A stretch of 35,125 bases of DNA, taken from the NCBI GenBank assembly GCA_002863065.1, contig PKDL01000112.1, forward strand, positions 1 to 35,125, given 5' to 3'. The stretch comes from Pseudomonadota bacterium. Its GTDB lineage: Bacteria; Myxococcota_A; UBA9042; GCA-2863065. Position 1 is the first letter of the stretch. Each line of letters starts with the position of its first letter. The notes beneath the pieces are model-generated. The model was not told the origin of the DNA, searched no databases, and worked only from the letters and a program-made list of their open reading frames with translations. Both the position numbers and the translations under genes were made by a program. Below, one piece after another: positions 460 to 26,213 of the stretch.

Positions 460-3400
460 CTATGGCGTACCACTACCACCGCACTCTGGGGTTGGAAGTG
501 GCTCGTACTCACAGCTGCCACCCGCACAGAGGTCCTGAGTGCAGTAGTTGCCATCATCGCAATCCGCATTCAGAGAACATCCCTCACAATCCGGGTCTAG
601 AATATGGAGGCAGCCGTCAATTGGGTCACAGAAGCTCGCTGTGCAAGGGTTGAAGTCCGTGCAGGGTGAAACATTCCAGACGCATTGGCCATTGTCCTCA
701 CAGAAGCCTGTGAGACACGCGTTATCCGCAGCACAGTCTGCATCTTCCGTACAGCCATTCCAGTTACCCAGAGCATATGGCTCGTTGATACATGCCCCCG
801 TCTCATTGGAGCAGATATCTCGGGTGGTCGGATCGGAATCGTCGCAGTCTTTCAGCGTATATGAGCACTGCGAATTAGTGCACTTCGGCTCCACGCATGG
901 GTCAGTGAACGGACAGTCGAAGTCAAACGAACAGACTAGGCCGCCGCATGTTGGATCCGCCTCAGTGACGCACCCAATGTACGGGACACAGAGCTCCGGT
1001 CCATCGATCGTACACGGCTCACCATCTGCACACGGCGTCGTGATGTGCTCACACACTCCGCTCGTGCATACATCTACCGTGCAGGGATCACTATCGCTGC
1101 ACTCACCGTCATTGAAGCAACCGCTTGCCTGACACTCTGGGGCACCGGTCGGCAGGTAGAAGCATGTCCCATCCTGCTGACAGATATCTAGCGTGCATTC
1201 GTCGTTATCGAAGCAATCTACCGCTTCGGTAGCTTTTACACACGGCTTGCAAGTGGTGTCCACCAGATGGACGCACTGACCGGTAGCAACATCACACGTA
1301 TCGACATCGCATGGATCATAGTTTTCGCACTGCGCGTCGTTAGTGCAACCGCCACAGTTCGGGATGGCAGTGAAGACACAGCCACTTTCCGGGTCACAGG
1401 AGTCAATTGTGCACGGGTTGAAGTCGTTACACTTGGCAGTGGTATAGACACAACCGCCCTCAATGCAAGAAGGATCGGTGCATAGGTCTCCGTCATCGCA
1501 GCCCTCTACTTCCTCACTATCCTCTTCCTCCACGCAACCCGTGTCATCACATGTTGGCACTGGCGATGTCGCACATTGACCGGTGACAGGGTTACAGAAA
1601 TCAAACGTACATGGGTCGCTGTCGTTACACACTTTCCCAGCCACCGAGCACGTCCCCGCAGTGCAGGTACCTACGAAGCACGGAGCGCCCGTATCGCAGT
1701 CAGCGTCGGTGAAGCACTGTGCATCACAATCCTCGAGTGGCTCGAGTATGCAACCGATACCCTCAACGCAGTCGGGCTGCGGACCTGTCGTACTCTGACC
1801 CGGTTGTGCCTGTTCGAACTGTGAAGTGCATGCGAGGCCGTCGTTACACAACACTTGCTCGGTGCGGCATACCCCATTGAAACAACGATCCCAGGTACAG
1901 GTAAGGCCGTCTTGGCAATCGTTATCCACGGTACACGTCTTCACCCCACAGAAGGGGTCGATAGTATGCGTACAGTATCCACTGCCGATATCGCACGAGT
2001 CGGCTGTGCATGCATCGTTGTCATTACAATCGGCGTCGCCATTCTCGCAGCTCACGACGTTGCAAGCAGGGTCTTCGTTGAACGTACAGCCGACCACCGG
2101 ATTACACGTATCGATAGTGCAATAGAGCATGTCGTCACACGTCACGAGGGCGTGGATGCATGACCCTGCAAGACATGCATCATCCGTGCACGCGTTGGAG
2201 TCATCACAATCCGCTTCCGACGCACAACCAGCCCAGCCCGCCTGTACAACGTTTTGACATTGCCCAGTCGCTGCATCACAGAAGTCACGCGTCTCTGGAA
2301 CACCGTCATTACAAATCGTCGGAGTGACGGTGCATGTTCCATCAATACAGCTGCCTGGTAGGCAAAGCTGCCCGGTATCGCAATCTCCATCGCTGACGCA
2401 CGGTGCGGTACACGTGGTGACGCCCGGCACGATATTGGACTTTGCAGGGAATGTGCAGCCATCTGTCTCGATACACTCCCCGTCTTGCGTACAGGCTTTA
2501 TCGTCAGAACAGTCAGTGTAACGCCATAGACAGCTACCATCCGGCTGGCAACGGTCCACCGTACATGCATTGTTGTCATTGCAATCTAGATCGGTGGCGC
2601 ATGCCTTTGGACACTCAGCAATACCGGCGGTATCAATTGCAGGTTCAAACACACATGTGCTCGTGACCGGGTCACAGAAATCTATGGTGCAAGGTTCACC
2701 GTCATTACAATCCGTGTTCTTCGTACAATCGCATGCTTCACCTGCATCTGGGTCACACTTCAAACAGTCCGCAAGCGTCTGGTCCGGGGTGTTCAAGCAC
2801 AGGCTTGTCGCCGGATTGCAGGTATCCAACGTACACGTATCATCGTCATCACATTCGGTCGCTATCTCCAGCGGAGTCCCGTTCGGGTCACAGGGGGTAC
2901 ACAGCTGTTCAGGAACCGTAATGAAGCTGCACTTCTGGGTCGAGATATCACAGATCCCAAGCGTACAGATGTTGTTGTCCCCGTCATCACAGTCAGCATC
3001 GCTGAAACATGGTGAGCAGCCAGGGATAGGCTCAAAGTCACAGTTACCACCTGCCTGTGGACACGTGTCGATGGTGCACGTATCACCATCTGAACAATCG
3101 CTATCAACAGAACAACCCGTACAATCGGGGATTGGTACGAACTGACACGTGTTGGTGACGGTGTCACAGGTATCCGTAGTGCAAGGATTGTAGTCGTTAC
3201 AGTCGATCAGCCGCATCATGCATTCCCCGGTCTCACAGAACACTGGAGTGCAGCTGTCGTCCGCCACCTGGGCACAGTCTGAGTCTGCTATACACTCATT
3301 GCCCGTAGCGGCTGGGTTCGGTGGGAATACACATTGGCCAGTCAACGGATTACAGAGGTCGAATGTTGCATCGTTATCGTCGATACAACCGTCGATATCC

Positions 3401-6400
3401 GGCGTTGGACTCTGCGAGAAGGTCACTTGACACTTGCCCGCTATACATGACGCCACCAGGCACGCGTCGCCTGTCTGACAATCAGCATCGACGCTGCAAT
3501 CCGCTTCGCAATTTTCATTACCGTACGTCACACAGCCGTAGCCTTCAAAGCAGTTACCGAAGAAGTTCTCGCAACCGCCGTCAGCAGTACAATTGATGAT
3601 TGTCTGGTCACATTCACCCCATGGCTGACACAGACTTCGCGTGCAGGTTAGACCGTCTTCACACTGCGCATTGGCTGTGCAGTAGGTTGTGGGGCACTGT
3701 GGCACCGTCTCATAGAAACAGGTGCCCTGGACACAGGCCTCAGCTGTACATGCATTATCATCATCGCAGTCGGCATTGGAGATACAGTCTCCATTCTCGC
3801 AATCCTGCTGAGGAGTAAACACGCAACCCTCGACCGGGTCACACGAATCTATCGTACAGGTATTGTAGTCATTGCAGTTGATGAGCTCGAAAGTACAGAG
3901 CCCAGAGTTTGCTGCGTCACAGACTTCTCGGATGCACTCATTACCCGTTTCACAATCTGCATCTACGTCACACGTATTTCCAAGACCCTGGCATGCGGTA
4001 TCAGCCTTATGTACACAATCGCCCGTGTATGGATCACAGTAATCAGCCGTACATGGATCGTTGTCGTTACATTCGACCACTTCAATAAAGCAGTAGTATT
4101 CTGACTGTTCACACTTGTTGACCGTACACAGGTTTCCGTCTTCGCAATCCGAGTCTTCATCGCAACCCGTATCGCAGTCATTGGCGCTGGGCCGGTTCTG
4201 GCAACCGTCCTCAGGGTCACAGACATCCGTTGTACAAATCACTTCGTCGTGGCAGCTGCGGATCTGGAACTCACAGTAGCCTTCAGGAGCGCAGGTAGAC
4301 GTTTGACAGATATTGGCAGCGGCTTCACACGCTTGGATACCGCCAGCCTGACAATCGATACATATCTGCCCATTCGGGAGAATCACAGGCGAGTAGGCAC
4401 AGGAACCCAGCCCGTCCTCATTTAGGATGCACTCGTCAATGGTGCACACATCGCTATCAGCGCACTCAGCATCAGAGGTGCAGAACTCCTCACAGCCAGG
4501 ATATGTATCGTGCTTGCACAGCAGTGTCGCGGGATCACAATAGTCGAGGGTGCATACTAGCCCATCATCACAGTCTTTCGGTGCATTCTGACAGAGACCA
4601 TTGATGCAGAGATCTGTCGTACACGCATTACCATCATCGCAGGTACCACTGGTAACGCACACTTGACCGCAGGTTTGAGAAATCAACGGATTCTCACAGG
4701 TCGCTTCTGCGAGCGGATTAGCATTGCAGTAGTTATATGTGCACGGGTTGCTGTCGTCGCACGGATTCGGCGGGTTCTCACATTGCCCTGTCAGCGGATT
4801 GCAACTATCGAGCGTGCATTTCGCACCATCGGTGCAATCACGTGCAGTGGATATGCACTCACCAGACAGCTCATCGCACGAGTCGATTGTGCAAGCGTTA
4901 CTGTCGTCGCAGTCGATGCCAGCGTTGATACAATTACCTGTCACGACGTTGCAGAAGTCCGTGGTGCACGGATTACCATCCGCACAATCAATCGGGGTAT
5001 TGCTACAGTTGCCTTCGACACAGTTGTCAGTCGTACACGCGTTGCCGTCTGAACAGCTTGTAGGCTGACTGGTGCACTGACCTGTCTCGATATTACAGAA
5101 GTCTTCCGTACATGGGTCGGCATCAGTACACGACTTATCCTGGCTTTGGCAGGTACCATCAGCTGCGCAGAAATTGACTGTACAGAGGTCGCCATCTTCA
5201 CAGTCTTTCGGTGTGTAGGAGCACTCACCAGTAGACGGATTACAAGCGTCAATCGTGCAAGCCTCACCATCGGAGCAGTCGACTGGAGCGATTTCACACT
5301 CCCCGGTCGCCGGCACACAAATACCAATGGTGCAAGGGTCTCCATCATCGCAGGTATTTATCGTGGCAGTGCAGCCCTCTCCGTCTACACAAGTATCGAT
5401 CGTGCACGGGTTATCATCGGTACATGTCACAGGGAATGTGGTGCACAAACCGTCGAGTGGATTGCATTCATCGATAGTGCAGTCGTTTCCGTCGTTGCAG
5501 GTAATGGTTTCTGAAATGCAACCACCTGCATTGACGTCGCAGATATTATTGGTGCAGGCATCACCGTCGTCACAGTCCTTATCCACTTGGATACACTGGA
5601 AAGGCTTGTCCGGATCGCCATTCTGGGACGGGCTCGTCAAGTCACATTGACCAACCGTACATGCCGCATTAAACGCAGCACAGTCGAGGTCGACAGCACA
5701 ATCAACAATGCATTCACCCTCAAAGGCGGTATTGACACAACCAACGCCCGGGGCACATGAGTCCACCGTGCAGGGATCACCGTCATTGCAGGGATTTTGT
5801 ACGACTTCGCAATTACCATTGATGCAGTAGTCAATGGTGCAAGGTTCATCGTCGCTGCATGACTTCAAGTTGTAGTTGCATTCTTTACCCGTCTCAGAAG
5901 TCGGTGAATCGACACAAACATCATCCGTACACGGGTCACTGTCGGAACAATCTGAATCTGAAGTGCAGGGGCAGAGAACGCCCGGAACCGGTACATGCAC
6001 ACATCCAACCGACAGGTTACATGAATCGATGGTGCATAGCTGACCGTCATCGCAATCCGTGGGCACGTTCTGACAGCCAAGCTCGGGATCACATAAGTCG
6101 TCAGTGCATGGATTCGAATCCGCACACACAACGGGGTTGTTCTTACATCCGACAACCGGGTCACACACGTCATTGGTGCACACGTCACCATCGTTGCAAT
6201 TCACTGGTGTGTTGAAACATCCGATCTGATCGAGGCAACCATCACTGGTACAGCTATCGCCATCATTGCAGTTTATAGGAGTATTGATACAGCCGACGGC
6301 TGGATTGCAGCTGTCATAGCTGCACATCGAGCCGTCATCGCAATCAATGAGCGCCTGTGAGCAGAATCCTGTGTCTTGGTCACACGAATCGGACGTGCAT

Positions 6401-9400
6401 GCGTTACCGTCGTCGCAGTCTTTTGCACTGAAGACGCAGCCAGTTTCGGGGTCGCACGAGTCAACCGTGCACAGATTACCGTCGGTGCATTCCACCACCG
6501 ACACTAAACAGCCCTCAACTTCGTCGCATAGGTCTGCAGTACACTCATTTTGGTCATCACATGCCTGCTCATAGATGCAACCTTCCACCGTCGTTGGATC
6601 GCATAGATCAACAGTGCAATTGCTTCCATCGTCACAGTCTGTGGGTTCGTAGACACAACCATCTTCTGGATCGCAGATAGCGTTACCCTGCGCGTCGGTC
6701 TCCGTCGTACATGCATTGCCGTCATCGCAATCAATCGGAGCTTGGCTGCAGGTTCCCGAAATCGGATCGCAGAGATCGGTCGTACATGCATCCCCATCCG
6801 AGCAGTCTAAGGCAAAATGCTGACATCCCTCGACGGCATCACAGACGTCGAAAGTACACGCACTGCCATCATCACAATCGTATACAAATACGCAGCCAAT
6901 ACCCGATTGACATGTATCGCTCGTACACGGATCCGAGTCGTCGCAAAGCTCCGGCACATGGAGACACTGGCCGTTTGCCGCACATACGTCCAAGGTGCAG
7001 TCATCTTCGTCAGCGCAATCTTTCGGCTGGAATTGGCACCCAACACTGGGCGCGCAGCTATCGACAGTACACAAGTCGCCATCTTCGCAGATAACCGAGA
7101 TGTTGCGACATTCGCCATTCAAGCAGCTGTCATTCGTGCAGACGCTTCCGTCATCACAATCTTCAACCGTGGTGCACGGCGGACCGGAGTTACCTGGGCA
7201 ACCCGAAATGCCGGTGTTGAAACAGCCCGTCTGCGGGTCGCACTGGTCGAGGGTGCAGTAGACATTATCGCTACAGTCTATCGCTTGATTGACACAGCCG
7301 GTCTCCGAATCGCACGAATCCAGCGTACACACACTACCGTCGTCGCAATCGACCAGTACGTTGGTGCACAGTCCATTCTGAAGTGGATCACACCCGTCCG
7401 TTGTACAAGCGTTGCCGTCACTGCAATCTTTCGGCGTATTGATGCAACCCGTAGACGGATCGCACGTATCTACAGTGCAGTCGTTGTTGATACCTGGGCT
7501 ACCCTCAACCGTATCAGCACAATCTAGCGGCCCATACGAACATCCAAGACTGGCTTCATCGCATGTGTCGACCGTACAAGCGTTACCATCGTCACAGGTA
7601 TTGGAGAAGACACAGCCAGTCGCTGGATCACACGTATCATCCGTACATTGCGACCCATCGTTACAGACGGTGGCAGTGTTGGTACAGAGGTCCTCTTCAT
7701 CACAGGTATCTACCGTACATTGGTTACCATCATCGCAGTCCAGTGCCGTATAGGAGCAATTCGCAGTAATGGGATCACAGGTGTCGACAGTGCAATTAAA
7801 GCCGTCGTCACAAACGACTGAGAGCGTATTCTGACAGCCAATACCGGAGTTGCAGAAGTCGGTGGTGCATTCATTACCATCGTCACAGGCATACACATTC
7901 GCACAACCAAACACCGGGTCGCAGCTGTCGTCTGTACAGGGATTTAGGTCATCACACGATGTTGCTGCGTGCTGACAGAGTCCAGTTGCTTCATTACACG
8001 TATCATCCGTACAAATTTGACCGTCATCGCAATCAACCACTTGGAAGACACAGCCGACGTCGCTATCACACAGGTCAGTAGTACACGGATTGCCATCGTT
8101 GCATATGACAGCCAGTGGCTGGCATACGTTGTTCACACACGTATTCGTCGTGCATGCATCATTGTCTTCGCAGTCTTCGTCATTCCCAGCCGCGCACGGA
8201 ATAATGCATGGGATAATCGGCGGGTTCGTACAGCCGATATTCACATCGCATAGATCTTGAGTACAAGGGACTTCGTCGTCACAAACCACGGCGACGTCAA
8301 TACCGGTATGAACGCAGCCAAGTTGCGGATCACAGCTGTCTTCAGTGCACGCATTTCCATCGTCACATACAATTAGCTCGTAGTCACATACCCCAACGCC
8401 ACCCACGTTATTACATGTGTCTACCGTGCACGGGTTATTGTCAGAGCAGTTCGTAGGCTGGAAGACGCAGCCTACTTCGGCGTTGCATGTATTGACGGTA
8501 CACCCGTCGTTATCTTCGCACGCTATGATCGTGTGACTGCACGCAAATAAGGCGTCGCATTGGTCTAGTGTGCACTCGTTGCCGTCGTCACAGAACGACA
8601 AGTGCTGACAGCCGACGTCGGGAATACAATTATCGGCGGTACAGATATCTCCGTCATCGCAGTCGTCGAGGAGGAAAATACAACCATCCTCGTCATCACA
8701 GACGCCGTCGACGGTACACGGGTCACCGTCCTGGCAAGGATCGGCGGGGTTGCTGCATAAGCCGTTGCTGCTGTTACACAAGTCGAGCGTACATGCTTCA
8801 CCGTCTGAGCAGTCTTTAGGTTCAAAGATGCATCCTTCCACTGGGTCACAAGAGTCGATCGTGCAGGCATTCGCATCGTTGCACGCATAAACGTTGGTAC
8901 AGCCAAGGCCTGGAGTACAGGTATCCGCTGTACAGGGGTTCTGATCATCGCAATCCGTAGGCTGACTGCTATCGCATACACCATTGGAGCAGGTGTCTAG
9001 CGTGCAGAGGTTTCCGTCCTCGCAATCGAGCGGAAGGAAGATACAACCCGCAATGGGGTCGCACGCGTCTATTGTGCACAGGTTCGAGTCATTGCAGACC
9101 ACATCCGTAAAATCACAGGCAAAGCCCGTCTCTGAACTCGCGTCCGGACTACAAACGGCAGTAGTACATGCGTTGCTGTCATCGCACGAAGCATTGTCGT
9201 TCGGGTCGCACGGCACATCACAAGCAGCGAGCTCGATAAACTCGCACCCAGTAGCCGGGTTACAGGTATCGATAGTGCACAGATTAGTGTCTGCACAGGT
9301 GATCGCTTCATTGAGACAGCCACTGTTGATATCGCAGCTGTCGTTAGTGCAAGCACTGCCGTCATCACAATCGACAACTTGGTAGAAACACCCACCCGAA

Positions 9401-12400
9401 ATCGGGTTGCAGAAGTCCAAGGTACAGGCGTTACCATCTTCACATTCTGCGGTTGGTGGATTGCTGCACAACCCAGTGAGCGCATTACAGTTATCTGTGG
9501 TGCATGGATTCCCGTCATCACATGTATTTCTGAAATCACATAATCCACCGCCAATACACTCACCGACGGTGCAGACGTTACCATCGTCACAGTCATACGC
9601 TGCAAATTGGCATTCCCCGGTCTCGAAGTCGCAGGTGTCGTTCGTGCAGGGATCACCATCGCTGCAATCTTTGTCGATAAAGTTACATAGCGTCGTTACC
9701 GGATCGCATTGGTCTACCGTACATTCCGTGCCATCGTTGCAGACTGGCGGGAAGAAACATCCGTCTGCCGCGTCACATAGGTTGAGCGTACATGCATCGC
9801 CATCAGAGCAGGCGATTGGAGTAAAGGTGCATTCCTGCGTCAGCGGGTTACACGAATCGACAGTGCATACATTTTTATCATCACAGAGCGCTTCGTAAAC
9901 GCAGCCTTGCGTCGCAAAACAGAGTTCATCAGTGCACGGGTTGCCGTCATCGCACACCACGGTGGTGTAGTCGCACTGGCCCGTCGCTTCGTTACAGAAC
10001 TCCGTTGTGCACAAGGATCCATCATCACAGATCTTGGTCTCATGCTGACAGCCTAAAACGGTATTGCAGTAGTCGACGGTACAATTGATCGCATCATCGC
10101 AAAGCACCAAGTCATTGATGCATCCAGTCACGATGTTACAGCTATCCGTCGTACACGCGTTGTCATCGTCACAGGCGTCATCAACCTGATAGCACTGCCC
10201 AGTCGCCGGATTGCAAAGGTCTTCAGTGCACGCATTATTGTCAGTGCAGTCTTTCGGTGGATTTTGACACTCACCATTGGCTGGATTGCAGTTGTCTTCC
10301 GTACAGGCAATACCATCCGCACAGTTTTTAATCGGAGCGATACATTGCCCCGTGGCTTCGTCGCATGCCTCGTTTGTACACGGATTCGTGTCCGTACATA
10401 CGAGCTCTGTAAACTGGCAGCCCGCAACTGGATCACAGCTGTCTACAGTGCAGTTTATACTGTCGTCACAGATCACATTGGACGTTTCGCAACTCCCAGT
10501 AGCCGGATTGCATTGTTCATTAGTGCACGCGTTATTGTCGTCACATACCACTGGTGTGGATTGACAACCGAGGGCCACATCGCACGTATCGATGGTGCAA
10601 CCATCGCCATCGTCACAAACCGTCAGTGTGTATCCACAGTTGCCAGTGACGGCATCACATAGCCCATCGGTACAGGCATCGCCGTCATCGCACGTTTTAG
10701 GATCGAAGACGCACTCACCGGTAGTCTCATCGCAGAAATCGACGGTACACAGGTCGTTATCGGCGCAAATCGTTAGCGTGTTCGTGCATGCTCCGGTGTC
10801 TGGATTGCAGCTGTCGACCGTACATGCGACTCCGTCATCGCATGCGTCCAGGTACTCACACTGGCCAGTCTCTTCGTTGCAGACATCCACGGTGCATGGG
10901 TTCTGGTCGTCACAGTTCTTTACGGTGTTGGTACAGAGGCCGGTTCCTAGGTTGCATGAATCGTTGGTACAGGCATCGCCGTCATCACAATTGACCGGTG
11001 CGTTGTTGCATAGCCCGGTATCCGGATTGCAGCTATCGATAGTACAGAGGCTGTTGTCATCACAATTCTTACTCGTATTTGAGCATTCCCCCGTTATCGA
11101 ATCGCATACGTCATCCGTACAGTTATCACCATCAGAACAATTTACAGGAGTGTGAGTGCAATCTGACCCGGTCGGCAGATTTATGCACGTGTCATTCGTA
11201 CACACATTCCCATCGTCACAATCTACCGGCGAGAAATCGCAGGTACCAGTGTCACACACTGCCACAGTGCAATAATCCACAATCTGCTGGCCGGGATTGC
11301 TTGGGTCATCGATCTTTACCGCGTCAATACAATCCTGGTCCTGAGAGCAAGGTACTGAAGCACATCCGTCGATGGACGTATCCCACACGTGAGAACACCC
11401 ACCAAGTGCACTACAGCTGTCTACCGTGCAGGGCTGTCCGTCATCGCACGTATTGGGGAATGAGCACTCTCCGGTTGCGACATCGCAACTATCCGTAGTG
11501 CATGGGTCCGTATCCGAGCATTTGGACACGTATGTGCAAGCACCCGTGACCGCGTCGCACAAATCATTCACGCAGGGGTTTCCGTCGTCGCAGGCATTCG
11601 GGAAATCACACGTTCCGGTCAGCGGATTGCATGCGTTAGAGGTACAGATATCGTCGTCGATACATATGATGTCCGTCGATAAACAGGTACCAGACAACGG
11701 GTTACAAACGTCGTTCGTGCAGAGATCGCCGTCGCTACAGTCTACCGGTGGGTTGGAGCACCCAGATACCGGGTCGCACAGGTCTTGTGTACACAGGTCA
11801 AAGTCTTCGCATGTCAATACGAGGTTCTGGCAATCACCGGATGCTGAATCGCACGAATCGGCCGTACAGGCGTTGCCGTCATCACAATTTTTCGGTGTAA
11901 ATCCGCACTGACCGGTCGCTGGATCACAGACGTCATCGGTGCACGGGATGTTGTCATCACAGACGACTGCTGGATTCGTGCACTCACCGGTACCGGGCTG
12001 ACACACATCATTGGTGCAGAGGTCACCGTCGCCGCAGTCCTTGGCTGGGAAGGTGCAAGAGCCGACATCTGGGTCGCAAATATCGTCAGTGCAGGGGTTA
12101 TTATCATCGCAGGCCACTGGCAGATTGACGCAATCGCCAGTGGCGCTGTTGCAAGAATCCAACGTACAAGCGTTGCCGTCGCTACAGTCCTTATCGTTAA
12201 AGACACATGTGCCATCGGCGGTATTACACGTGTTAATTGTACAAGGAAGGTTGTCCTCACAGACCTTCGCTTCGTACTGGCATTCACCGGTGGCGGTATC
12301 GCAGGTGTCCACCGTACATGGGTTCCCGTCATTGCAGAATCCAGAGGGCGCCTGCGCGCAATTCAATGTGCCGCATTGGGTGCTCTGAATCGGCGTATTG

Positions 12401-15400
12401 ACGCAACCAACTCCAGGCGTACAGCTGTCGGTTGTACACGAATCGCCATCGTCACAATCGACCGCATTATTCACGCAGCCTGTCGCTGGGTCGCACGTAT
12501 CTACCGTGCACGGATCGTTGTCATTACAATCGATCTGGTTGTTCACACACGTACCCGTAGTGAACGGCTCCGTACACTCATCTGTGGTGCATGCGGTGCC
12601 ATCGGAACAGTCTTTTGGCGGGAACTGGCAGTTCCCACTTTCTGTATCGCATGCGTTGACAGTGCATTCATTTCCGTCTTCGCACACCTTTTCTACGTTG
12701 GAGCAGCCAGTCTCGTCGTCACAGGAGTCGATCGTACACTGGTTACCGTCATCGCACGTCTCGGGCGGGTAGTAACAACCAACAGACGCCTCGCAAAGAT
12801 CGGCGGTACACAGTAGCCCATCATCGCAATTCGTCGGCGCATACTGACAGCCAAGCGACGCATCGCAGGTGTCTGTTGTGCACTTATCGTTGTCATCACA
12901 CGTGACCGGCGAATTGATACACCCTGAGCCGGGAGAGCAGGTATCAGATGTGCAGGCATCTCCATCGCTACAATCCGTAATCAAATGGGAGCAGGAGCCG
13001 GTCTCGCTATTACACAGGTCATCCGTGCATGGGTCACCGTCATTACAGTTTTTGTCCTCGTAGAGGCAAATTCCGGAGTCTGGGTCGCAGGAATCCGTCG
13101 TACAGAGATTCCCATCGTCACACGCTTTCGGGGTAAAATTACAGGTCCCGTCCAGCGGATTGCAGAAATCGTCCGTACAAGCAATCCCATCGAAACAGTC
13201 TTTTATTTCGAATACACAGACGCCGTATTCACCAGAAAGATCGCAAGTATCCGTCGTACAGAGATTAGAGTCATCGCAGCCTGCGTCGTTCTCGCAAATC
13301 TTACCTTCGCACCCTGGAATGGTGGGGTCTGGTTGATTTAGGCAGCCTACGAGCGGGTTACAAAAATCCGCGGTACAAGGGTCGTTATCAGCGCAATCAA
13401 GCTGGTTATTGATACACCCTAAGAGAGCGTCGCAGCTGTCAGTAGTGCAGTTGTCAGAGTCATTACAAATGACATCGATGTTGACGCAGTTACCCGTAGC
13501 ACCGTCACAGGTGTCTGTGGTGCACGCTGTCCCGTCTGAGCAATCTTTTGCGGGGAACTGACAGATGCCGTTCACACACGTGTCGTTCGTGCACAGGTTG
13601 CCATCAACACATACTTGAGGGGTATTCACACAGCCTTGGGTCGGCGAGCAAGAGTCAGTCGTACACGGATCGCCATCGTCGCAGGTTTTCGGTGCAAAGA
13701 AGCAGCCTGCGAGATCATCGCATAAGTCATCGGTACAAATATTACCGTCATCGCAGTCCACTGGGACATGGAGGCACGCACCCGTGCTTTCATTGCAGCT
13801 AGAGTCCGTACATACCGTGCCATCATCGCAATCCAGGGGTGTGTAAATACAGCCACCACCAGCGGTACAACTATCCACTGTGCAGGGTTCGCCATCATCA
13901 CACCCTGCGGTCAGATTTTGGCAGCCACCTGTCGCAGGGTTGCACTGGTCAACAGTGCATGAGTTGTTGTCATTGCAGGTCTTGATTGTATGAACGCATC
14001 CGCCAGCGACGTTGGGAACGCACGTATCTACCGTGCATAGGTCGCCATCTTCACAGTCCTGTGGAACATATTGGCATTCGCCTGAGATAGGATTACAGAG
14101 GTCATTAGTACACACATTACCGTCAGAACAGTCTTTTGGAGTGCTCTGGCAGAAGCCTTGCGACTCACCTTGTGGAATCACGCATTCATCAGCAGTGCAG
14201 GCGTTGCCATCGTTACAGATGGCAGCGTCAGTGCATGGTGCCGGCTGGATATATGAACAGCCGGCAAGCGGCGAACAGTTGCTGATGAACGATTCCGGCG
14301 GATAGAAACTGGCTGGTGGTTCGCCGCCATCACACCACACATTTGGCGGACCATCGATGCACGGGTCACAGACCTTTTCTGCACTGGTGCAACCCGCCAC
14401 GGGGTCGCAGGTATCCGTGGTACACGCATTGCCATCAGAGCAGTCTTGAGGCGTGTTAATGCATCCACCAGTGGCTAGGTTGCAGCTATCGGCGGTACAC
14501 ACATCACCGTCGTCGCATGACACCACACTGAATTGGCAGCCAGACGCAGGATTACAGCTGTCGATGGTACAGTTATCGCCATCCTGACAGATGGTTGCAG
14601 AATAGCTACAGCCCGTGGATGGCACGCAGATATCATCGGTGCAAAAATTACCATCATCGCACTCCACGGGGGTGTTGATGCAGAATGGATTGCCATCCGG
14701 GGTAAATCCAACGCTATCGCTTGTGCACTCATTGTTGTCGTCGCAACCACCGCACACATCCACGTGGATACAACCGTCTTCAGGGTCACAGAGGTCTATC
14801 GTACAGTCGTTCACATCGTCGCAATCGACAGGCACAAACTGGCACCCTGACGCAGGATTGCAGCTGTCGACAGTGCAAGAATCATTGTCGTTACACACGA
14901 GTTGTTCGTAGACGCACTTTCCGTATTGTGACGATAGAGGATTGGTTTCACAGGTACCCGTTTCGCACTGATTGGCACCGCTGGAACAAGTCAGTTCGGT
15001 GAAAATGCAGAACCCGTCTTGCCCGCATGTGTCAAACGTGCATGGATTTCCATCGTCGCACGGCGTATCTCCAGGCTGATCACACGACTGCTGGATACAC
15101 TCGGCCTTCAAGACACTAAAGTCACACTGTCCAGTGGTTGGATCACACCCATTGAAAGTACAATCGTCGCCATCATCGCAGGTATTTTCGTGCGCGCATG
15201 TGCCTTGAGGCGTGCAAACATCGGTCGTACACGCCAGGTCTCCTGACTCCGTTTCGAAGTTGCTGCAGTTGGTATCGAAATCCGTTTGTGTGGCGCCCTC
15301 GGCGTTACATGGCGCACAAATACCATCAGGCTTAGCCGCAAAGATACAACCAGTGGTGTTGTCGCAGGAATCCACGGTGCATTCGTCTTGGTCATCACAC

Positions 15401-16284
15401 ACTACCGGTGTAAACACGCACTTCCCTTGCGCAATGTTGCACGTACCCGTCGAACAGAGGAATTGGTCGTCGCAGAACCCATTCCAGCCCAGCGGGGTGA
15501 GCTCACTACCACCACAAGAGACACAGTCTGGGATTGGTTCATTGATACACCCGACAGCAGGATCGCAACTATCGTTGGTGCACACGATATCGTCATTGCA
15601 ATTTTTCGCAGCGTAGCTGCATTGTCCCTTGAGTTGCGTCGGCCCGATATTGCAGGTGGCTTCTTGGCACAAGTCGCCTCCACATTCCTCTACGCTGGCA
15701 CAAGACTCACAGTTTGGAATCGGGCTGTAAAAACACTCCAAGGTATCTGCACCCGCTCCAGCGAAGGCGACACCGGTTTCACATGCGTACACTGAAATAC
15801 AATCTGGGGTCGATTGAGGATTGGGAATACAGGTGTCCTGAGATGTCTGCTGGTAACCGTCCGGACAAAGGCAGTCGTCCGTAACCAGAAGCACCAGCGA
15901 CCCCGGGAAAGCAGGGGTATCGCAGAGATTATCCGGTACATCAGGCGGTGGCGACACGTCCTCGACAACGTCTGGCTCTGCATCTACAGCATCGTCTGCA
16001 CCGTCAGTATCAGGGACATCTGGAGTGTCGGTACTTTCCGCACCATCGACATCGTCCGCACCATCCGTACCGGATATATCCGGCACGTCTGGCTGGTCAG
16101 CACTCGTCGTCGCGTCAGCCGAACTTATGTCGTCCGACGCAGTAGTACTACCGACGTCCTCGCTCGGCGCCGGCTGTAAGGCCGCATCCTCCGAGCAACT
16201 GATTGTTACAAGGCTTGCGACGGCGATCACAAACCCGACCCTTCGCTGTAAACCAGCGACTCTCTGGAAAAGATGGTGCCGCAC
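460..16284 (-). CDS. Giant Cys/Asp-rich CTDC-repeat (Dicty_CTDC-like) lipoprotein, ~5,270 aa
   Basis: Single uninterrupted ORF (track 460..16320). AGGAGG at 16291-16296 lies 6 nt upstream of an in-frame GTG at 16284, giving MRHHLFQRVAGLQRRVGFVIAVASLVTISC|SED, a lipoprotein signal with lipobox-like VTISC. A D/T/S/A-rich linker follows, then on the order of 200 tandem units such as CDDGNACTADSCDSASGDCQNLVLTC. Stop TAG at 460-462. Confidence 0.95.
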   Translation of the reverse strand: MRHHLFQRVAGLQRRVGFVIAVASLVTISCSEDAALQPAPSEDVGSTTASDDISSADATTSADQPDVPDISGTDGADDVDGAESTDTPDVPDTDGADDAVDAEPDVVEDVSPPPDVPDNLCDTPAFPGSLVLLVTDDCLCPDGYQQTSQDTCIPNPQSTPDCISVYACETGVAFAGAGADTLECFYSPIPNCESCASVEECGGDLCQEATCNIGPTQLKGQCSYAAKNCNDDIVCTNDSCDPAVGCINEPIPDCVSCGGSELTPLGWNGFCDDQFLCSTGTCNIAQGKCVFTPVVCDDQDECTVDSCDNTTGCIFAAKPDGICAPCNAEGATQTDFDTNCSNFETESGDLACTTDVCTPQGTCAHENTCDDGDDCTFNGCDPTTGQCDFSVLKAECIQQSCDQPGDTPCDDGNPCTFDTCGQDGFCIFTELTCSSGANQCETGTCETNPLSSQYGKCVYEQLVCNDNDSCTVDSCNPASGCQFVPVDCDDVNDCTIDLCDPEDGCIHVDVCGGCDDNNECTSDSVGFTPDGNPFCINTPVECDDGNFCTDDICVPSTGCSYSATICQDGDNCTIDSCNPASGCQFSVVSCDDGDVCTADSCNLATGGCINTPQDCSDGNACTTDTCDPVAGCTSAEKVCDPCIDGPPNVWCDGGEPPASFYPPESFISNCSPLAGCSYIQPAPCTDAAICNDGNACTADECVIPQGESQGFCQSTPKDCSDGNVCTNDLCNPISGECQYVPQDCEDGDLCTVDTCVPNVAGGCVHTIKTCNDNNSCTVDQCNPATGGCQNLTAGCDDGEPCTVDSCTAGGGCIYTPLDCDDGTVCTDSSCNESTGACLHVPVDCDDGNICTDDLCDDLAGCFFAPKTCDDGDPCTTDSCSPTQGCVNTPQVCVDGNLCTNDTCVNGICQFPAKDCSDGTACTTDTCDGATGNCVNIDVICNDSDNCTTDSCDALLGCINNQLDCADNDPCTADFCNPLVGCLNQPDPTIPGCEGKICENDAGCDDSNLCTTDTCDLSGEYGVCVFEIKDCFDGIACTDDFCNPLDGTCNFTPKACDDGNLCTTDSCDPDSGICLYEDKNCNDGDPCTDDLCNSETGSCSHLITDCSDGDACTSDTCSPGSGCINSPVTCDDNDKCTTDTCDASLGCQYAPTNCDDGLLCTADLCEASVGCYYPPETCDDGNQCTIDSCDDETGCSNVEKVCEDGNECTVNACDTESGNCQFPPKDCSDGTACTTDECTEPFTTGTCVNNQIDCNDNDPCTVDTCDPATGCVNNAVDCDDGDSCTTDSCTPGVGCVNTPIQSTQCGTLNCAQAPSGFCNDGNPCTVDTCDTATGECQYEAKVCEDNLPCTINTCNTADGTCVFNDKDCSDGNACTLDSCNSATGDCVNLPVACDDNNPCTDDICDPDVGSCTFPAKDCGDGDLCTNDVCQPGTGECTNPAVVCDDNIPCTDDVCDPATGQCGFTPKNCDDGNACTADSCDSASGDCQNLVLTCEDFDLCTQDLCDPVSGCSNPPVDCSDGDLCTNDVCNPLSGTCLSTDIICIDDDICTSNACNPLTGTCDFPNACDDGNPCVNDLCDAVTGACTYVSKCSDTDPCTTDSCDVATGECSFPNTCDDGQPCTVDSCSALGGCSHVWDTSIDGCASVPCSQDQDCIDAVKIDDPSNPGQQIVDYCTVAVCDTGTCDFSPVDCDDGNVCTNDTCINLPTGSDCTHTPVNCSDGDNCTDDVCDSITGECSNTSKNCDDNSLCTIDSCNPDTGLCNNAPVNCDDGDACTNDSCNLGTGLCTNTVKNCDDQNPCTVDVCNEETGQCEYLDACDDGVACTVDSCNPDTGACTNTLTICADNDLCTVDFCDETTGECVFDPKTCDDGDACTDGLCDAVTGNCGYTLTVCDDGDGCTIDTCDVALGCQSTPVVCDDNNACTNEQCNPATGSCETSNVICDDSINCTVDSCDPVAGCQFTELVCTDTNPCTNEACDEATGQCIAPIKNCADGIACTEDNCNPANGECQNPPKDCTDNNACTEDLCNPATGQCYQVDDACDDDNACTTDSCNIVTGCINDLVLCDDAINCTVDYCNTVLGCQHETKICDDGSLCTTEFCNEATGQCDYTTVVCDDGNPCTDELCFATQGCVYEALCDDKNVCTVDSCNPLTQECTFTPIACSDGDACTLNLCDAADGCFFPPVCNDGTECTVDQCDPVTTLCNFIDKDCSDGDPCTNDTCDFETGECQFAAYDCDDGNVCTVGECIGGGLCDFRNTCDDGNPCTTDNCNALTGLCSNPPTAECEDGNACTLDFCNPISGGCFYQVVDCDDGSACTNDSCDINSGCLNEAITCADTNLCTIDTCNPATGCEFIELAACDVPCDPNDNASCDDSNACTTAVCSPDASSETGFACDFTDVVCNDSNLCTIDACDPIAGCIFLPLDCEDGNLCTLDTCSNGVCDSSQPTDCDDQNPCTADTCTPGLGCTNVYACNDANACTIDSCDPVEGCIFEPKDCSDGEACTLDLCNSSNGLCSNPADPCQDGDPCTVDGVCDDEDGCIFLLDDCDDGDICTADNCIPDVGCQHLSFCDDGNECTLDQCDALFACSHTIIACEDNDGCTVNTCNAEVGCVFQPTNCSDNNPCTVDTCNNVGGVGVCDYELIVCDDGNACTEDSCDPQLGCVHTGIDVAVVCDDEVPCTQDLCDVNIGCTNPPIIPCIIPCAAGNDEDCEDNDACTTNTCVNNVCQPLAVICNDGNPCTTDLCDSDVGCVFQVVDCDDGQICTDDTCNEATGLCQHAATSCDDLNPCTDDSCDPVFGCANVYACDDGNECTTDFCNSGIGCQNTLSVVCDDGFNCTVDTCDPITANCSYTALDCDDGNQCTVDTCDEEDLCTNTATVCNDGSQCTDDTCDPATGCVFSNTCDDGNACTVDTCDEASLGCSYGPLDCADTVEGSPGINNDCTVDTCDPSTGCINTPKDCSDGNACTTDGCDPLQNGLCTNVLVDCDDGSVCTLDSCDSETGCVNQAIDCSDNVYCTLDQCDPQTGCFNTGISGCPGNSGPPCTTVEDCDDGSVCTNDSCLNGECRNISVICEDGDLCTVDSCAPSVGCQFQPKDCADEDDCTLDVCAANGQCLHVPELCDDSDPCTSDTCQSGIGCVFVYDCDDGSACTFDVCDAVEGCQHFALDCSDGDACTTDLCDPISGTCSQAPIDCDDGNACTTETDAQGNAICDPEDGCVYEPTDCDDGSNCTVDLCDPTTVEGCIYEQACDDQNECTADLCDEVEGCLVSVVECTDGNLCTVDSCDPETGCVFSAKDCDDGNACTSDSCDQDTGFCSQALIDCDDGSMCSYDSCNPAVGCINTPINCNDGDSCTSDGCLDQIGCFNTPVNCNDGDVCTNDVCDPVVGCKNNPVVCADSNPCTDDLCDPELGCQNVPTDCDDGQLCTIDSCNLSVGCVHVPVPGVLCPCTSDSDCSDSDPCTDDVCVDSPTSETGKECNYNLKSCSDDEPCTIDYCINGNCEVVQNPCNDGDPCTVDSCAPGVGCVNTAFEGECIVDCAVDLDCAAFNAACTVGQCDLTSPSQNGDPDKPFQCIQVDKDCDDGDACTNNICDVNAGGCISETITCNDGNDCTIDECNPLDGLCTTFPVTCTDDNPCTIDTCVDGEGCTATINTCDDGDPCTIGICVPATGECEIAPVDCSDGEACTIDACNPSTGECSYTPKDCEDGDLCTVNFCAADGTCQSQDKSCTDADPCTEDFCNIETGQCTSQPTSCSDGNACTTDNCVEGNCSNTPIDCADGNPCTTDFCNVVTGNCINAGIDCDDSNACTIDSCDELSGECISTARDCTDGAKCTLDSCNPLTGQCENPPNPCDDSNPCTYNYCNANPLAEATCENPLISQTCGQVCVTSGTCDDGNACTTDLCINGLCQNAPKDCDDGLVCTLDYCDPATLLCKHDTYPGCEEFCTSDAECADSDVCTIDECILNEDGLGSCAYSPVILPNGQICIDCQAGGIQACEAAANICQTSTCAPEGYCEFQIRSCHDEVICTTDVCDPEDGCQNRPSANDCDTGCDEDSDCEDGNLCTVNKCEQSEYYCFIEVVECNDNDPCTADYCDPYTGDCVHKADTACQGLGNTCDVDADCETGNECIREVCDAANSGLCTFELINCNDYNTCTIDSCDPVEGCVFTPQQDCENGDCISNADCDDDNACTAEACVQGTCFYETVPQCPTTYCTANAQCEDGLTCTRSLCQPWGECDQTIINCTADGGCENFFGNCFEGYGCVTYGNENCEADCSVDADCQTGDACLVASCIAGKCQVTFSQSPTPDIDGCIDDNDATFDLCNPLTGQCVFPPNPAATGNECIADSDCAQVADDSCTPVFCETGECMMRLIDCNDYNPCTTDTCDTVTNTCQFVPIPDCTGCSVDSDCSDGDTCTIDTCPQAGGNCDFEPIPGCSPCFSDADCDDGDNNICTLGICDISTQKCSFITVPEQLCTPCDPNGTPLEIATECDDDDTCTLDTCNPATSLCLNTPDQTLADCLKCDPDAGEACDCTKNTDCNDGEPCTIDFCDPVTSTCVFEPAIDTAGIAECPKACATDLDCNDNNACTVDRCQPDGSCLWRYTDCSDDKACTQDGECIETDGCTFPAKSNIVPGVTTCTAPCVSDGDCDTGQLCLPGSCIDGTCTVTPTICNDGVPETRDFCDAATGQCQNVVQAGWAGCASEADCDDSNACTDDACLAGSCIHALVTCDDMLYCTIDTCNPVVGCTFNEDPACNVVSCENGDADCNDNDACTADSCDIGSGYCTHTIDPFCGVKTCTVDNDCQDGLTCTWDRCFNGVCRTEQVLCNDGLACTSQFEQAQPGQSTTGPQPDCVEGIGCILEPLEDCDAQCFTDADCDTGAPCFVGTCTAGTCSVAGKVCNDSDPCTFDFCNPVTGQCATSPVPTCDDTGCVEEEDSEEVEGCDDGDLCTDPSCIEGGCVYTTAKCNDFNPCTIDSCDPESGCVFTAIPNCGGCTNDAQCENYDPCDVDTCDVATGQCVHLVDTTCKPCVKATEAVDCFDNDECTLDICQQDGTCFYLPTGAPECQASGCFNDGECSDSDPCTVDVCTSGVCEHITTPCADGEPCTIDGPELCVPYIGCVTEADPTCGGLVCSFDFDCPFTDPCVEPKCTNSQCSYTLKDCDDSDPTTRDICSNETGACINEPYALGNWNGCTEDADCAADNACLTGFCEDNGQCVWNVSPCTDFNPCTASFCDPIDGCLHILDPDCEGCSLNADCDDGNYCTQDLCAGGSCEYEPLPTPECGGSGTP
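463..15700 (-). repeat. Protein-level tandem repeat array, ~24-25 aa (72-75 nt) period, four Cys per unit
   Basis: Translated units repeat the pattern C-D-D-G-N-x-C-T-x-D-x-C-[DN]-x4/5-G-x-C-x5/7-. Codons differ between units, so DNA identity is much lower than protein identity. Confidence 0.9.
15925..16194 (-). other. Low-complexity Asp/Thr/Ser/Ala/Pro-rich post-lipobox linker
   Basis: Encodes SEDAALQPAPSEDVGSTTASDDISSADATTSADQPDVPDISGTDGADDVDGAESTDTPDVPDTDGADDAVDAEPDVVEDVSPPPDVPD. Confidence 0.8.
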
Positions 16285-16450
16285 CCGGCCCCTCCTCTTT
16301 TTGCTCTGAAGACTATCCACAAGAACTGATCTTGTGAGTACCCTTCGCGATCACGCGATTAAGCTGCATCCCACCGGTCTGCTAAAGTACCAGAATGACT
16401 TACTGGCTAGCAAACTCTAGTGTGTTACAAAACATCGATCCGCGAGGGAG

Positions 16451-16479: not shown

Positions 16480-16514
16480 TACGAATGTTGAGCGGCGGCG
16501 GAGGTAAGAAAAAA

Positions 16515-18320
16515 ATGCGTCTTTTTTCGAAAATCAGTGTGTTCTTTTGTGTGTCGATTTTTTTACTTCAGATTGGGTGCTCAGGTGGTGACGCTTCCGC
16601 TGTGAACGCCACGTCCAGTTCAGACAATACAGATACCACGGACAACGCAAACTCAACCACGGAAGATGATACTGCAGACGGAACCGATACCGCGGACACG
16701 TCAGATGGTTTGGACACGACAGATGGCTCCAGCGAAGCAAACACGTCTGCTACGGACAGTGCGGATGGAGCAGACCAGTCCAACGCGACTGAGTCCGATG
16801 CGAGCGATGGCGTAGACACCGCCGACAGCACTGGGACAGATGCCAGCGATGGACCCTCAGTATGTGCGGCAGATGGCATCTGTGATGCCGATGCAGGCGA
16901 AACGTTCGACAATTGTCCGGACGATTGCACCTGCGGAAACGGCATCTGTGACGCTACTGAGACGTATGATGACTGCCCAGCCGACTGTATCTGCGGTAAC
17001 TCAGTCTGCGACGAAGGCGAGGATAACATCACGTGTCCTGAGGATTGCTCCTGCGGCGACGGAGTCTGTGACGACACAAAAGGTGAAGATGCTGCATCGT
17101 GTGCGCTCGACTGCAGCTGTGACGCCGTAAATGGGTGCGCTCAGGAACCCACCATGCCTGTTTGTTACAACGGCTCCGAATTCTTTCCGAATTTCTGCTA
17201 CGCACAATGCGCACACCCAGAAGATGCCCTGGACCTTTCCCTGCCGTATTCGCCAGACACGTGCACTGTGGAGCTGAATTGCCAGGACCCAGCATGCAAT
17301 CCCGCTTGGGTAGACCAACAGCCTGTGTGTTGGCAGTCAGGTGCTCAAAACCAATCTTACTCAGACCCTTATGCAGCGTGCTGCGACGGGCACAATTGGC
17401 TTACCGACTCGGATGTGTTTCCCGGTGAGTGTGGCGGCGGATCAAATTTCACGTGTTCGGAAGCCTCAGCATGTCCGCCCACGGAGCAATTGGTATGCGG
17501 TACGCTGGACGGCACTGACCAAACATTTCAGAACCTCTGCGATTTCTCCTTGTGCGCAGACAATGACGGTAGTGGACCAGTGCTCGAATGCTCTGCGCCA
17601 TGTGGAGCCCACTATAATTGTCCGGCGTGCGCGGAGAACGATGCATGCGAACTCGTATGTGGTGCTGACGGTACGACCTATCGAAATAGTTGCTACGCCG
17701 CTTGCGCAGGCATCCAAGTCGAATCCATCGGCGAATGTTGCGATTGCCCTGAACCTAGCGCGAATCAGCAAGTCTGTGGTGATGACGGCACTACGTACGG
17801 CAGCGAATGCCTCCTAGGGTGTGCAGATGCCGTATTGCCAGCATATGTTGGCCCTTGCGTTGAGGGGTGCTCCCCCGCCCCGGACGATGAAGCAGCCTGC
17901 GGATTCTACAATGGCGCATTTACTACATTCGCTAACGCAGCATGTGCGCAGGCCGCAGGAGCCACTTGCGTATACGACGGTGATTGCGCGCCAGGCACTT
18001 TCAATCCCTGCCCACTGTCTGATCCCTACTACGCCCCTGTCTGCGCAGCGGTACCAGGTGGACAACTAGACAGCTATCCAAATGCGTGTTTTGCCGGATG
18101 TGCTGGAGCGTCCGTGGAGTATGCTGGCCTCTGCGATGAATGCACAACTTCAGCCACCCTGTGCCCGCCTGAAGCGACGACCGACGCACAACCAACGTGT
18201 GTGGTGGAAGAATGCGTGCTGTATCCAAACGAATGTTATCCCAAAAAATGCACCGGGAATGCCGAGTCTACGCTACAGAAATTCACTTGCCCTCAAAACT
18301 GCGGTGAATTGGAGGAATAA
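16515..18320 (+). CDS. Cys-rich lipoprotein with CGxGxC modules and multiple Kazal-like modules
   Basis: GGAGG just upstream of ATG 16515 (track start 16485). MRLFSKISVFFCVSIFLLQIGC|SGG is a lipoprotein signal. Then a D/T/S/A linker, four CGNGICDATETYDDCPADC-type units, and Kazal-like segments including VCGADGTTYRNSCYAACAGIQVESIGEC and VCGDDGTTYGSECLLGCADAVLPAYVGPC. Confidence 0.88.
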   Translation: MRLFSKISVFFCVSIFLLQIGCSGGDASAVNATSSSDNTDTTDNANSTTEDDTADGTDTADTSDGLDTTDGSSEANTSATDSADGADQSNATESDASDGVDTADSTGTDASDGPSVCAADGICDADAGETFDNCPDDCTCGNGICDATETYDDCPADCICGNSVCDEGEDNITCPEDCSCGDGVCDDTKGEDAASCALDCSCDAVNGCAQEPTMPVCYNGSEFFPNFCYAQCAHPEDALDLSLPYSPDTCTVELNCQDPACNPAWVDQQPVCWQSGAQNQSYSDPYAACCDGHNWLTDSDVFPGECGGGSNFTCSEASACPPTEQLVCGTLDGTDQTFQNLCDFSLCADNDGSGPVLECSAPCGAHYNCPACAENDACELVCGADGTTYRNSCYAACAGIQVESIGECCDCPEPSANQQVCGDDGTTYGSECLLGCADAVLPAYVGPCVEGCSPAPDDEAACGFYNGAFTTFANAACAQAAGATCVYDGDCAPGTFNPCPLSDPYYAPVCAAVPGGQLDSYPNACFAGCAGASVEYAGLCDECTTSATLCPPEATTDAQPTCVVEECVLYPNECYPKKCTGNAESTLQKFTCPQNCGELEE

Positions 18321-18786
18321 GGCTACGGCTCTCTCGGCCTTTCAACTGGAGCTGCTCGTCGCTTTGTATGAGCAGCAGTCACGCTTTCGCTCCGGCGACT
18401 GGTCGTTCGATGGTACGATCTGGAGCCGCGCAGCATACCGGATTGCCTCGTCTCACTCTGCACTCCGTCCGTCTCCTGCCGCAGGGCGAAAAAACATGTC
18501 ACGCACATTTGAATCCAAGCTAGTGCAAGCACGACAAGCACTAAAATCGAGGCGACTGGTCAAAGTCAAAGTCATCCGACCTCACGATGCACCTGCCGCC
18601 TTTTCGCAGGGCTACAAGAAACACCGAGCAAAAAATACCGACGTGTTTCTTACGAACACCGGCCTCAACGCAGCGGAGGCGTATCTACGTCGCCAAGGGA
18701 TGATGGCGGAACCTCAGCTAGCTCAATGTGATGGAAGCGCCGTCCCGCTGGGTCCAGTTGCTATCGACAAATCGGGATGTGACTAG
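18304..18786 (+). CDS. Small winged-helix-like putative DNA-binding protein (start uncertain)
   Basis: Only the ORF in this frame fills 18321-18728. Core: FQLELLVALYEQQSRF...IWSRAAYRIASS...RTFESKLVQARQALKSRRLVKVKVI...TDVFLTNTGLNAAEAYLRRQGMM. The helix-rich pattern and 'TDVFLTNTGLNAAEAYL' end resemble winged-helix proteins. The track start at 18082 lies inside the preceding gene; an in-frame GTG at 18304 is one alternative. Confidence 0.45.
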   Translation: MNWRNKATALSAFQLELLVALYEQQSRFRSGDWSFDGTIWSRAAYRIASSHSALRPSPAAGRKNMSRTFESKLVQARQALKSRRLVKVKVIRPHDAPAAFSQGYKKHRAKNTDVFLTNTGLNAAEAYLRRQGMMAEPQLAQCDGSAVPLGPVAIDKSGCD

Positions 18787-25175: not shown

Positions 25176-26054
25176 TTATTGGGAGAGACATCCAGCTTGT
25201 TCGCCACAGCTAAGTAATACCTGAAGTGCGTCTGACGCTGATTGCGTCGCCTGAGAGAAGCATTGCGACGTACAACCCAAGTCTCCACTGCAGGAAGCAA
25301 GGCAGCTACGCAGCAACGGACAGCCAGCGGTAGTGTAGCATTCAGACAGTGCATTTTTGCATGGCCCGGCGAGACATTGGTCCGTTGCATCGCCACAATC
25401 AAAGGTACAGGTCGCTACTGTTTCGGTCGGGGAATCACAGACACTGTCGCCACATACGACTGCAGACGAATCACAGAGCTCTCGGTAATCGTCACAACAG
25501 TCGTTGTTCTCCGCGCATTTCACATCGCACTGGCACGGTTTTCCGTTATCAAATGTGAAATCACAGCGACCGTAACAAGACGAAGGCTGTTGACAGTCCT
25601 CATCACAGCTTTCACCTGGCTGACATCGCCCATCGCCACATTCGACCACATCACAACCCGCACTTACGCCACAGGAAAAATAACGTTCGAAATCAGATAG
25701 GGCTTCTGCATCTGCCTTCGACTTGCATCTATCGATGCAATCAACGGTTGGGCAACTCCAGATACAGGTCTTCAGCTCGAGACAGGTTGGACTCAAAACG
25801 CACAATGCTTGCCTCAGTCCACATGACGACGTCCAGCAGTCAGGAAAGCAATCATCATCACAATCGCTTTCGGAAGCACATACACCATCGCCACAAACAG
25901 GAACCGGAGGAGCACTGGGAGAGAAGGCATCTGACGGCCGAAGCACAGCCGTATCGTTGGCCATCGACGAAGAATCCGCGGCACTCGTAGTCGGCAACCC
26001 CTCAGAAGAACATCCGAGTAAAGTCAGTAACAAATACGCGAAAATGGGCCTCAT
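25176..26054 (-). CDS. Cys-rich lipoprotein with somatomedin-B-like domain and CGDGxC modules
   Basis: MRPIFAYLLLTLLGC|SSEG lipoprotein signal (track start 26060). CYGRCDFTFDNGKPCQCDVKCAENNDCCDDYRELC fits the somatomedin-B cysteine pattern. CGDGVCASESDCDDDC, CGDGRCQPGESCDEDC, CGDSVCDSPTETVATCTFDC. Confidence 0.85.
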   Translation of the reverse strand: MRPIFAYLLLTLLGCSSEGLPTTSAADSSSMANDTAVLRPSDAFSPSAPPVPVCGDGVCASESDCDDDCFPDCWTSSCGLRQALCVLSPTCLELKTCIWSCPTVDCIDRCKSKADAEALSDFERYFSCGVSAGCDVVECGDGRCQPGESCDEDCQQPSSCYGRCDFTFDNGKPCQCDVKCAENNDCCDDYRELCDSSAVVCGDSVCDSPTETVATCTFDCGDATDQCLAGPCKNALSECYTTAGCPLLRSCLASCSGDLGCTSQCFSQATQSASDALQVLLSCGEQAGCLSQ

Positions 26055-26213
26055 CGTCATAACAGCAGCCTAGCATCTTGATGGGTGAGGTGTCCTCTCG
26101 CTAAAAGTAGACGGCAGATCATAGTTCAACTCCAACGGAGACCCGTTCAGCTGTAGCAATCCCACGGAATGTCGATCTCTCAGCTGTAACCCATCGTGAG
26201 GATGTGAGAATCT

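Follow-up and report, generated by a model that had tools for sequence, protein, structure and literature searches.

We report a gene of about 15.8 kb from an uncultured bacterial relative of the myxobacteria, whose product we consider, with moderate confidence, to be an outer-surface lipoprotein carrying an articulated, stiff, disulfide-stapled rod that may work as a fibre, in adhesion, or as a matrix scaffold. The rod character is well supported, the fold is predicted, and surface exposure, hinges, and biological role are read more indirectly, with the lipid anchor, the shape of the chain, and structural analogues together suggesting a surface fibre, an adhesin scaffold, or a matrix element. 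Virtually the whole protein is a tandem array of small four-cysteine units of the slime-mould Dicty_CTDC family, and comparative alignments indicate that this array is kept nearly unit for unit across related genera.

A giant lipoprotein gene on the minus strand

The window, i.e., the whole stretch of DNA that was analysed, comprises 35,125 nt (contig PKDL01000112.1 of assembly GCA_002863065.1), and its main features are collected in Table 1. The initial annotation, made from the DNA alone, had described an unbroken ~15.8-kb frame of ~5.27k residues with a lipoprotein signal, and all of this was borne out. The longest reading of the frame runs from 16320 to 460 on the minus strand (5,286 aa, GTG start), and the GTG at 16284 is the likelier start because AGGAGG sits 6 nt upstream. 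The signal fits a PROSITE PS51257-type pattern (IAVASLVTIS/C) with Cys30 following a hydrophobic stretch, and the mature protein has a computed mass of ~544 kDa after processing. Lipoboxes were present in 8/8 further giant CTDC proteins checked in related genomes (those of the orthologues described below lie in regions reading ALVALGAC and SALALAGC), and tethers like the acidic D/T/S/P-rich one were found in all giant CTDC proteins. Cysteines become abundant at about residue 120, and the CTDC units occupy residue 195 to the C-terminal end.

Table 1 Features of the giant CTDC gene and its neighbour, in window coordinates
Feature	Position	Strand	Basis
Giant CTDC lipoprotein gene, 5,274 aa, GTG start	460..16284	-	translated frame
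Shine-Dalgarno AGGAGG (perfect), 6 nt before GTG 16284	16291..16296	-	sequence
Lipoprotein signal peptide, aa 1-29, and lipidated Cys30	16195..16284	-	lipobox pattern
Acidic D/T/S/P-rich tether, aa about 31-119	15928..16194	-	translation
CTDC array, aa 195-5274, about 170 units	463..15702	-	Pfam matches and core counts
27-unit run, the longest block predicted to be stapled throughout, aa 1689 to about 2353	9226..11220	-	block analysis
Six-unit block modelled by AlphaFold2, pLDDT 97.2	10249..10692	-	structure prediction
C-terminal part, aa 3882-5274: blocks of 1-2 units and cap/linker segments, predicted to be jointed; C-terminal sequence conserved across giants	463..4641	-	
Cys-rich lipoprotein, acidic tether, Kazal-type domain; divergent from the giant	16485..18320	+	domain match

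The array belongs to Dicty_CTDC

Pfam searches of the translation matched Dicty_CTDC (PF00526), as the initial annotation had proposed, far above the cut-off throughout the protein: E 1.4e-138 in 31 stretches of the first 1,200 aa, E 2.5e-231 in 48 stretches of the middle 1,534 aa, and E 9.5e-45 in 12 stretches of the last 1,000 aa, with the best single repeat scoring 46.5 bits against a curated cut-off of 27 bits. Strict C-x5-C-x4-C cores numbered 162 (shuffled sequences gave a mean of 4.0 and a maximum of 10), and 170 units were recognized when one missing Cys was allowed. Hence the unit type and length first described, i.e., four-Cys units of ~24 aa, were recovered (mostly 24-25 aa, spaced C-x5-C-x4-C-x5/6-C), while the estimate of ~200 copies was too high and the count is nearer 170. 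Within the cores, Thr is conserved in 151/162, Asp at position 10 in 131/162, and Asp at position 3 in 154/162. In total, the protein holds 807 Cys and 794 Asp (15% of residues) with a net charge of -936, and the Cys outside regular units sit in irregular caps and linkers.

Separately, a second unit subtype with a longer C2-C3 spacing of x5 (C.D...CT..D.C) gave 889 matches in the other CTDC proteins of the class, in many of which it alternates with canonical units; the giant hardly contains it, with 3 hits for a related pattern.

Authenticity and conservation across genera

Misassembly is common for repeat arrays, and the host assembly is a draft MAG (5.38 Mb in 578 contigs), both of which would favor an assembly artefact, a pseudogene, or eukaryotic contamination; against this, several lines of evidence reduce that reading to a negligible probability. 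No exact DNA repeat of ≥22 nt was found inside the gene, so that its assembly would be unambiguous even from short reads. Further, equivalent arrays occur in two other genera of the host's family, where one orthologue (G001; 5,281 aa, reaching past the contig edge) aligns colinearly with the giant over its whole length and the other (G002; 3,178 aa up to the contig end) over the part present, and these orthologues already refute the concern about an artefact that accompanied the first description. The neighbouring genes are ordinary bacterial ones (HrcA, GrpE, radical SAM, and ABC1).

The pseudogene variant is contradicted by retention of Cys despite saturated synonymous change. Between the giant and G001, overall identity is 49%, yet Cys is retained at 780 of 794 aligned Cys positions (98%) and 157 of the 162 cores stand in shared alignment columns, while Asp is kept at only 61%. 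Codons at the conserved Cys are identical in 394 cases and different in 386, i.e., about half have changed while the residue stayed, and therefore synonymous sites are saturated and Cys is under retention. These comparisons provide strong evidence that the giant is a translated, selected protein. We also considered the constant unit number as proof of selection on length and rejected it, since the units are too diverged in DNA (no 22-nt repeats) to recombine and, without recombination, their number would be stable anyway; conservation of Cys is thus, at the sequence level, the stronger evidence of selection.

Beyond the host's family, other families of the class also encode lipoproteins made entirely of CTDC units, 3.3-4.6 thousand residues long, and several giants of one such family have a gene neighbourhood in common. 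The gene for the Kazal-type lipoprotein (Table 1) adjoins the giant in both same-family genomes (G001 and G002), but it is absent beside the giants of other families and was rejected as an obligate partner. Elsewhere in the window, a 998-aa FG-GAP / UnbV-ASPIC protein is encoded at 18728-21724 (+), directly followed by a radical SAM gene with a weak B12-binding match, and a protein with a Somatomedin B domain, a Cys-rich domain usually found in animals, lies at 25176-26060 (-; E 2.1e-9).

Paired cysteine losses suggest the disulfide pattern

Co-loss of Cys was analysed in 2,266 units of de-duplicated proteins, among which 784 in-register neighbour pairs were scored. Two pairings stood out: C4 was lost together with C1 of the same unit (13/16 vs 0/768, p 9e-26), and C2 together with C3 of the next unit (5/5 vs 5/779, p 1e-10), the latter resting on five cases that represent perhaps four independent events. 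The alternative pairings tested, among them C3(i)-C2(i+1) and C4(i)-C1(i+1), showed no association (p 0.28 or more). The other 35 units without C2 all precede a register break, often followed by a C-x5-DC cap, which is consistent with an inter-unit staple because there is no next unit there to pair with. From these patterns we infer that a C1-C4 bond closes each unit and that C2 of one unit bonds C3 of the following one.

The host genome encodes two VKOR-DsbA fusion proteins, which we count in favor of oxidative folding; such a fusion joins both halves of a disulfide-forming pathway. One of them (locus L135, 1-1971, minus strand) runs on into part of an FGE-sulfatase domain (formylglycine-generating-enzyme-like), matched at E 5.7e-5 and thus at the curated cut-off, which is an unusual combination with VKOR-DsbA.

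So many Cys in a single protein could also be read as a thiol/disulfide buffer or sulfur store, held by a lipoprotein in the periplasm or on the inner face of the membrane, the more so as surface display is something we infer. We hold this to be very improbable: a store would need neither position-specific Cys spacing, nor block lengths, nor paired losses, and a long stiff rod fits the periplasm poorly.

Predicted fold and its match to the Entamoeba HgL arm

The initial annotation had looked to structure prediction of a small multi-unit block, and a six-unit AlphaFold2 model, built with an alignment of 47 blocks, was predicted with high confidence (pLDDT 97.2) as a series of hairpin units with two strands each. 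When compared with the PDB by Foldseek, this model retrieved only five entries below E 0.001, all of the Gal/GalNAc lectin heavy chain (HgL) of Entamoeba histolytica (E 1.7e-5 to 5.3e-5, probability 1.00), the next best match being at E 0.72. The C-terminal 200 residues, modelled with a separate alignment of eight sequences, gave a weaker prediction (pLDDT 70.2) with the same hairpin modules plus short helices, and its first five PDB fold matches were again HgL (probability 0.93), here too with HgL entries alone below E 0.001. Foldseek TM-scores were low (0.31 and 0.19), which is expected of long curved chains but keeps the match from being proof. PDB sequence searches with the giant, at E up to 1 and 10, did not list HgL and returned chance matches only.

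A proposed stapled, jointed rod

Taken together, these observations can be arranged into a model in which each ~24-aa unit would fold as a small beta hairpin closed by its C1-C4 disulfide, and C2 of each unit would pair with C3 of the unit after it, such that runs of up to 27 units would form one covalently stapled rod segment. Irregular linkers and caps lacking the staple would join the segments and act as putative hinges. Blocks were defined by splitting the array wherever staple or register is absent, and the block-length series 5-12-12-13-27 is identical across the three genera (the giant and its two orthologues). Most hinges would fall close to the N terminus or within the last quarter of the protein, its C-terminal part, leaving long stiff segments in the middle. 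The lipid anchor and acidic tether would keep the N terminus at the membrane while the rod would extend away from the cell as a long fibre, possibly serving reach and adhesion or as a matrix scaffold.

A disulfide-rigid, acidic fibre had been envisaged from the outset; rigidity has since gained from the predicted staples, the model, and a solved analogue, and the acidity is real, but acidity as a function fared less well. Were the array mainly a cation-binding matrix, in which conserved Asp take up Ca2+ or another metal and rigidity comes second, the abundance of Asp and its recurrence at positions 3 and 10 of most cores would be explained. We nonetheless judge this unlikely, as the net charge is only -465 in the orthologue of similar length and Cys is kept so much better than Asp (98% vs 61%), and no metal is mentioned for the similar HgL arm in the available part of its report (PMC12948311). 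Selection appears to hold the disulfides far more than the acidity, given these retention rates and a charge that halves, and acidity is an unlikely function of the array because its degree is lineage-specific (-936 vs -465).

It is also possible, though doubtful, that the end of the rod matters rather than the rod itself, i.e., that the array is a long stalk presenting a binding tip, as has been suggested for the repeats of TraA (PMC3325183), seen there as a rigid stalk. In its favor, giants of four families can be aligned over their C-terminal ~200 aa, where a C-x-D-F-N-P-C-T motif recurs. However, Pfam detects no non-CTDC domain at the C terminus of the giant, the C-terminal model consists of the same hairpin modules with short helices, and the host's two PA14 matches are not at the CTDC matches of their contigs. 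We therefore retain the jointed rod as the preferred reading, on the understanding that surface exposure, hinges, and function are its more conjectural parts.

A class-wide repertoire and the question of origin

CTDC matches were found in 36/36 genomes of the host's class within a sample of the phylum Myxococcota (E 1e-6), and, among the matches listed at the same threshold, in 61/153 sampled genomes outside the class, usually with few matches each. Among relatives, 24/26 carried CTDC at E 1e-9 and the remaining two passed at 1e-6. The relatives matching best in the single-protein query were MAG records mostly labelled Myxococcota, Myxococcales, or Deltaproteobacteria. The host genome has at least 35 open frames with CTDC, a lower bound because 150 matches were scored among 779 candidates. 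Of 22 other CTDC frames inspected there, each with 3 to 28 units and not a pure array, 17 have a lipobox-like pattern. No CTDC arrays were found in the phage and plasmid collections searched, and a viral fold search with the model gave no convincing match. Separately, three CTDC loci (L056, L057, and L086) come from public MAG records that bear the labels Candidatus Magasanikbacteria and Klebsiella pneumoniae, and these records are probably mislabelled or mixed bins.

The occurrence of slime-mould repeats in a bacterium had raised bacterial origin, convergence, or transfer between amoebae and bacteria, and the survey recasts this question around a class-wide bacterial repertoire rather than a lone odd gene. 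By number, that of a single bacterial genome is larger than that of Dictyostelium discoideum (at least 35 frames vs 14 CTDC proteins; Physarum has 15 and Acanthamoeba none; PMC4931340). A single recent transfer from an amoeba is unlikely, as far as genome distribution can tell, because the repertoire is class-wide; for common descent with the dictyostelid proteins, units as short as 24 aa offer little signal to a tree. More speculatively, and on balance improbably, one stapled-hairpin block could be common to this uncultured Myxococcota class, the slime-mould matrix, and the Entamoeba arm, having passed between bacteria and Amoebozoa and become a main extracellular construction element of the class, with selection keeping the giant rods at a fixed number of units, fixed joint positions, and a defined length.

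Comparison with known systems

The repeat itself is a known Pfam family; new, as far as searched, are a pure array of this size and its conservation, the class-wide repertoire, the staple pattern deduced here, and the fold link, and in the portions available of the literature naming PF00526 or Dicty_CTDC we found no description of bacterial CTDC arrays. The slime-mould members of PF00526 include matrix proteins (PMC4406040, PMC4931340), and EcmA and EcmB of dictyostelids resemble the giant in having a signal peptide followed by Cys-rich Dicty_CTDC repeats (PMC4406040), but they are eukaryotic and without a bacterial lipid anchor, whereas the giant is predicted to be lipid-anchored by its lipobox. 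Dictyostelium PsiA and PsiF offer a further contrast: the host has two PA14-domain matches (loci L137 and L138 on contigs C18 and C1), and these are apparently not fused to CTDC repeats.

Within Myxococcota, TraA and its paralogue are likewise built with Cys-rich tandem repeats proposed as a rigid surface stalk, and the TraA authors noted some resemblance of these repeats to PF00526 (PMC3325183). The TraA repeat family TIGR04201, however, has only three invariant Cys as opposed to four per unit in the giant, NCBIfam models, TIGR04201 among them, gave no match at E 0.01 within the N-terminal 1,200 or the C-terminal 1,000 aa, and TraA has PA14 and MYXO-CTERM where the giant has a lipobox and neither of those. 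CREMP of avian eggshell membranes is similar in its four-Cys tandem modules and in being a structural fibre material, but its spacing (C-X4-C-X5-C-X8-C-X6; PMC3068167) differs from that of the giant. By size only, the Apilactobacillus proteins Giant1-5 can be compared, being extracellular and thousands of residues long according to the accessible part of their description (PMC12863079). At ~170 units kept nearly unit for unit across genera, the giant would be a remarkable case in nature of disulfide stapling carried along so long a rod, and it is a candidate biomaterial.

The closest structural parallel is HgL, matched in two separate models (entries 9gja, 9gjb, 9gjc, 9gjf, and 9gjg), and what follows draws on the part of its report available (PMC12948311). 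Its Cys-rich arc and arm consist of linked four-Cys pseudo-domains, each 20-35 residues long, in which C1-C4 is bonded inside the domain while C2 is joined to the domain before it and C3 to the one after it, 'rigidifying the arrangement', and the arm is expected to be more flexible where an inter-domain bond is missing. The pattern deduced for the giant from co-loss, which was derived ahead of this comparison, agrees in kind (C1-C4 internal, C2 and C3 between domains), as does its predicted behavior as a stiff rod that yields where a staple is missing. The two differ in neighbour direction, since C2 would reach the following and C3 the preceding unit in the giant; in the three strands per unit reported for HgL vs two in the AlphaFold model; and in extent, the Cys-rich region of HgL being about 800 residues vs about 5,080, without detectable sequence similarity. 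PF00526, modelled in a 2021 study among repeat families without known structure (PMC8078820), thereby gains a testable structure, and the fold and predicted bond pattern tie this family to a newly solved parasite adhesin.
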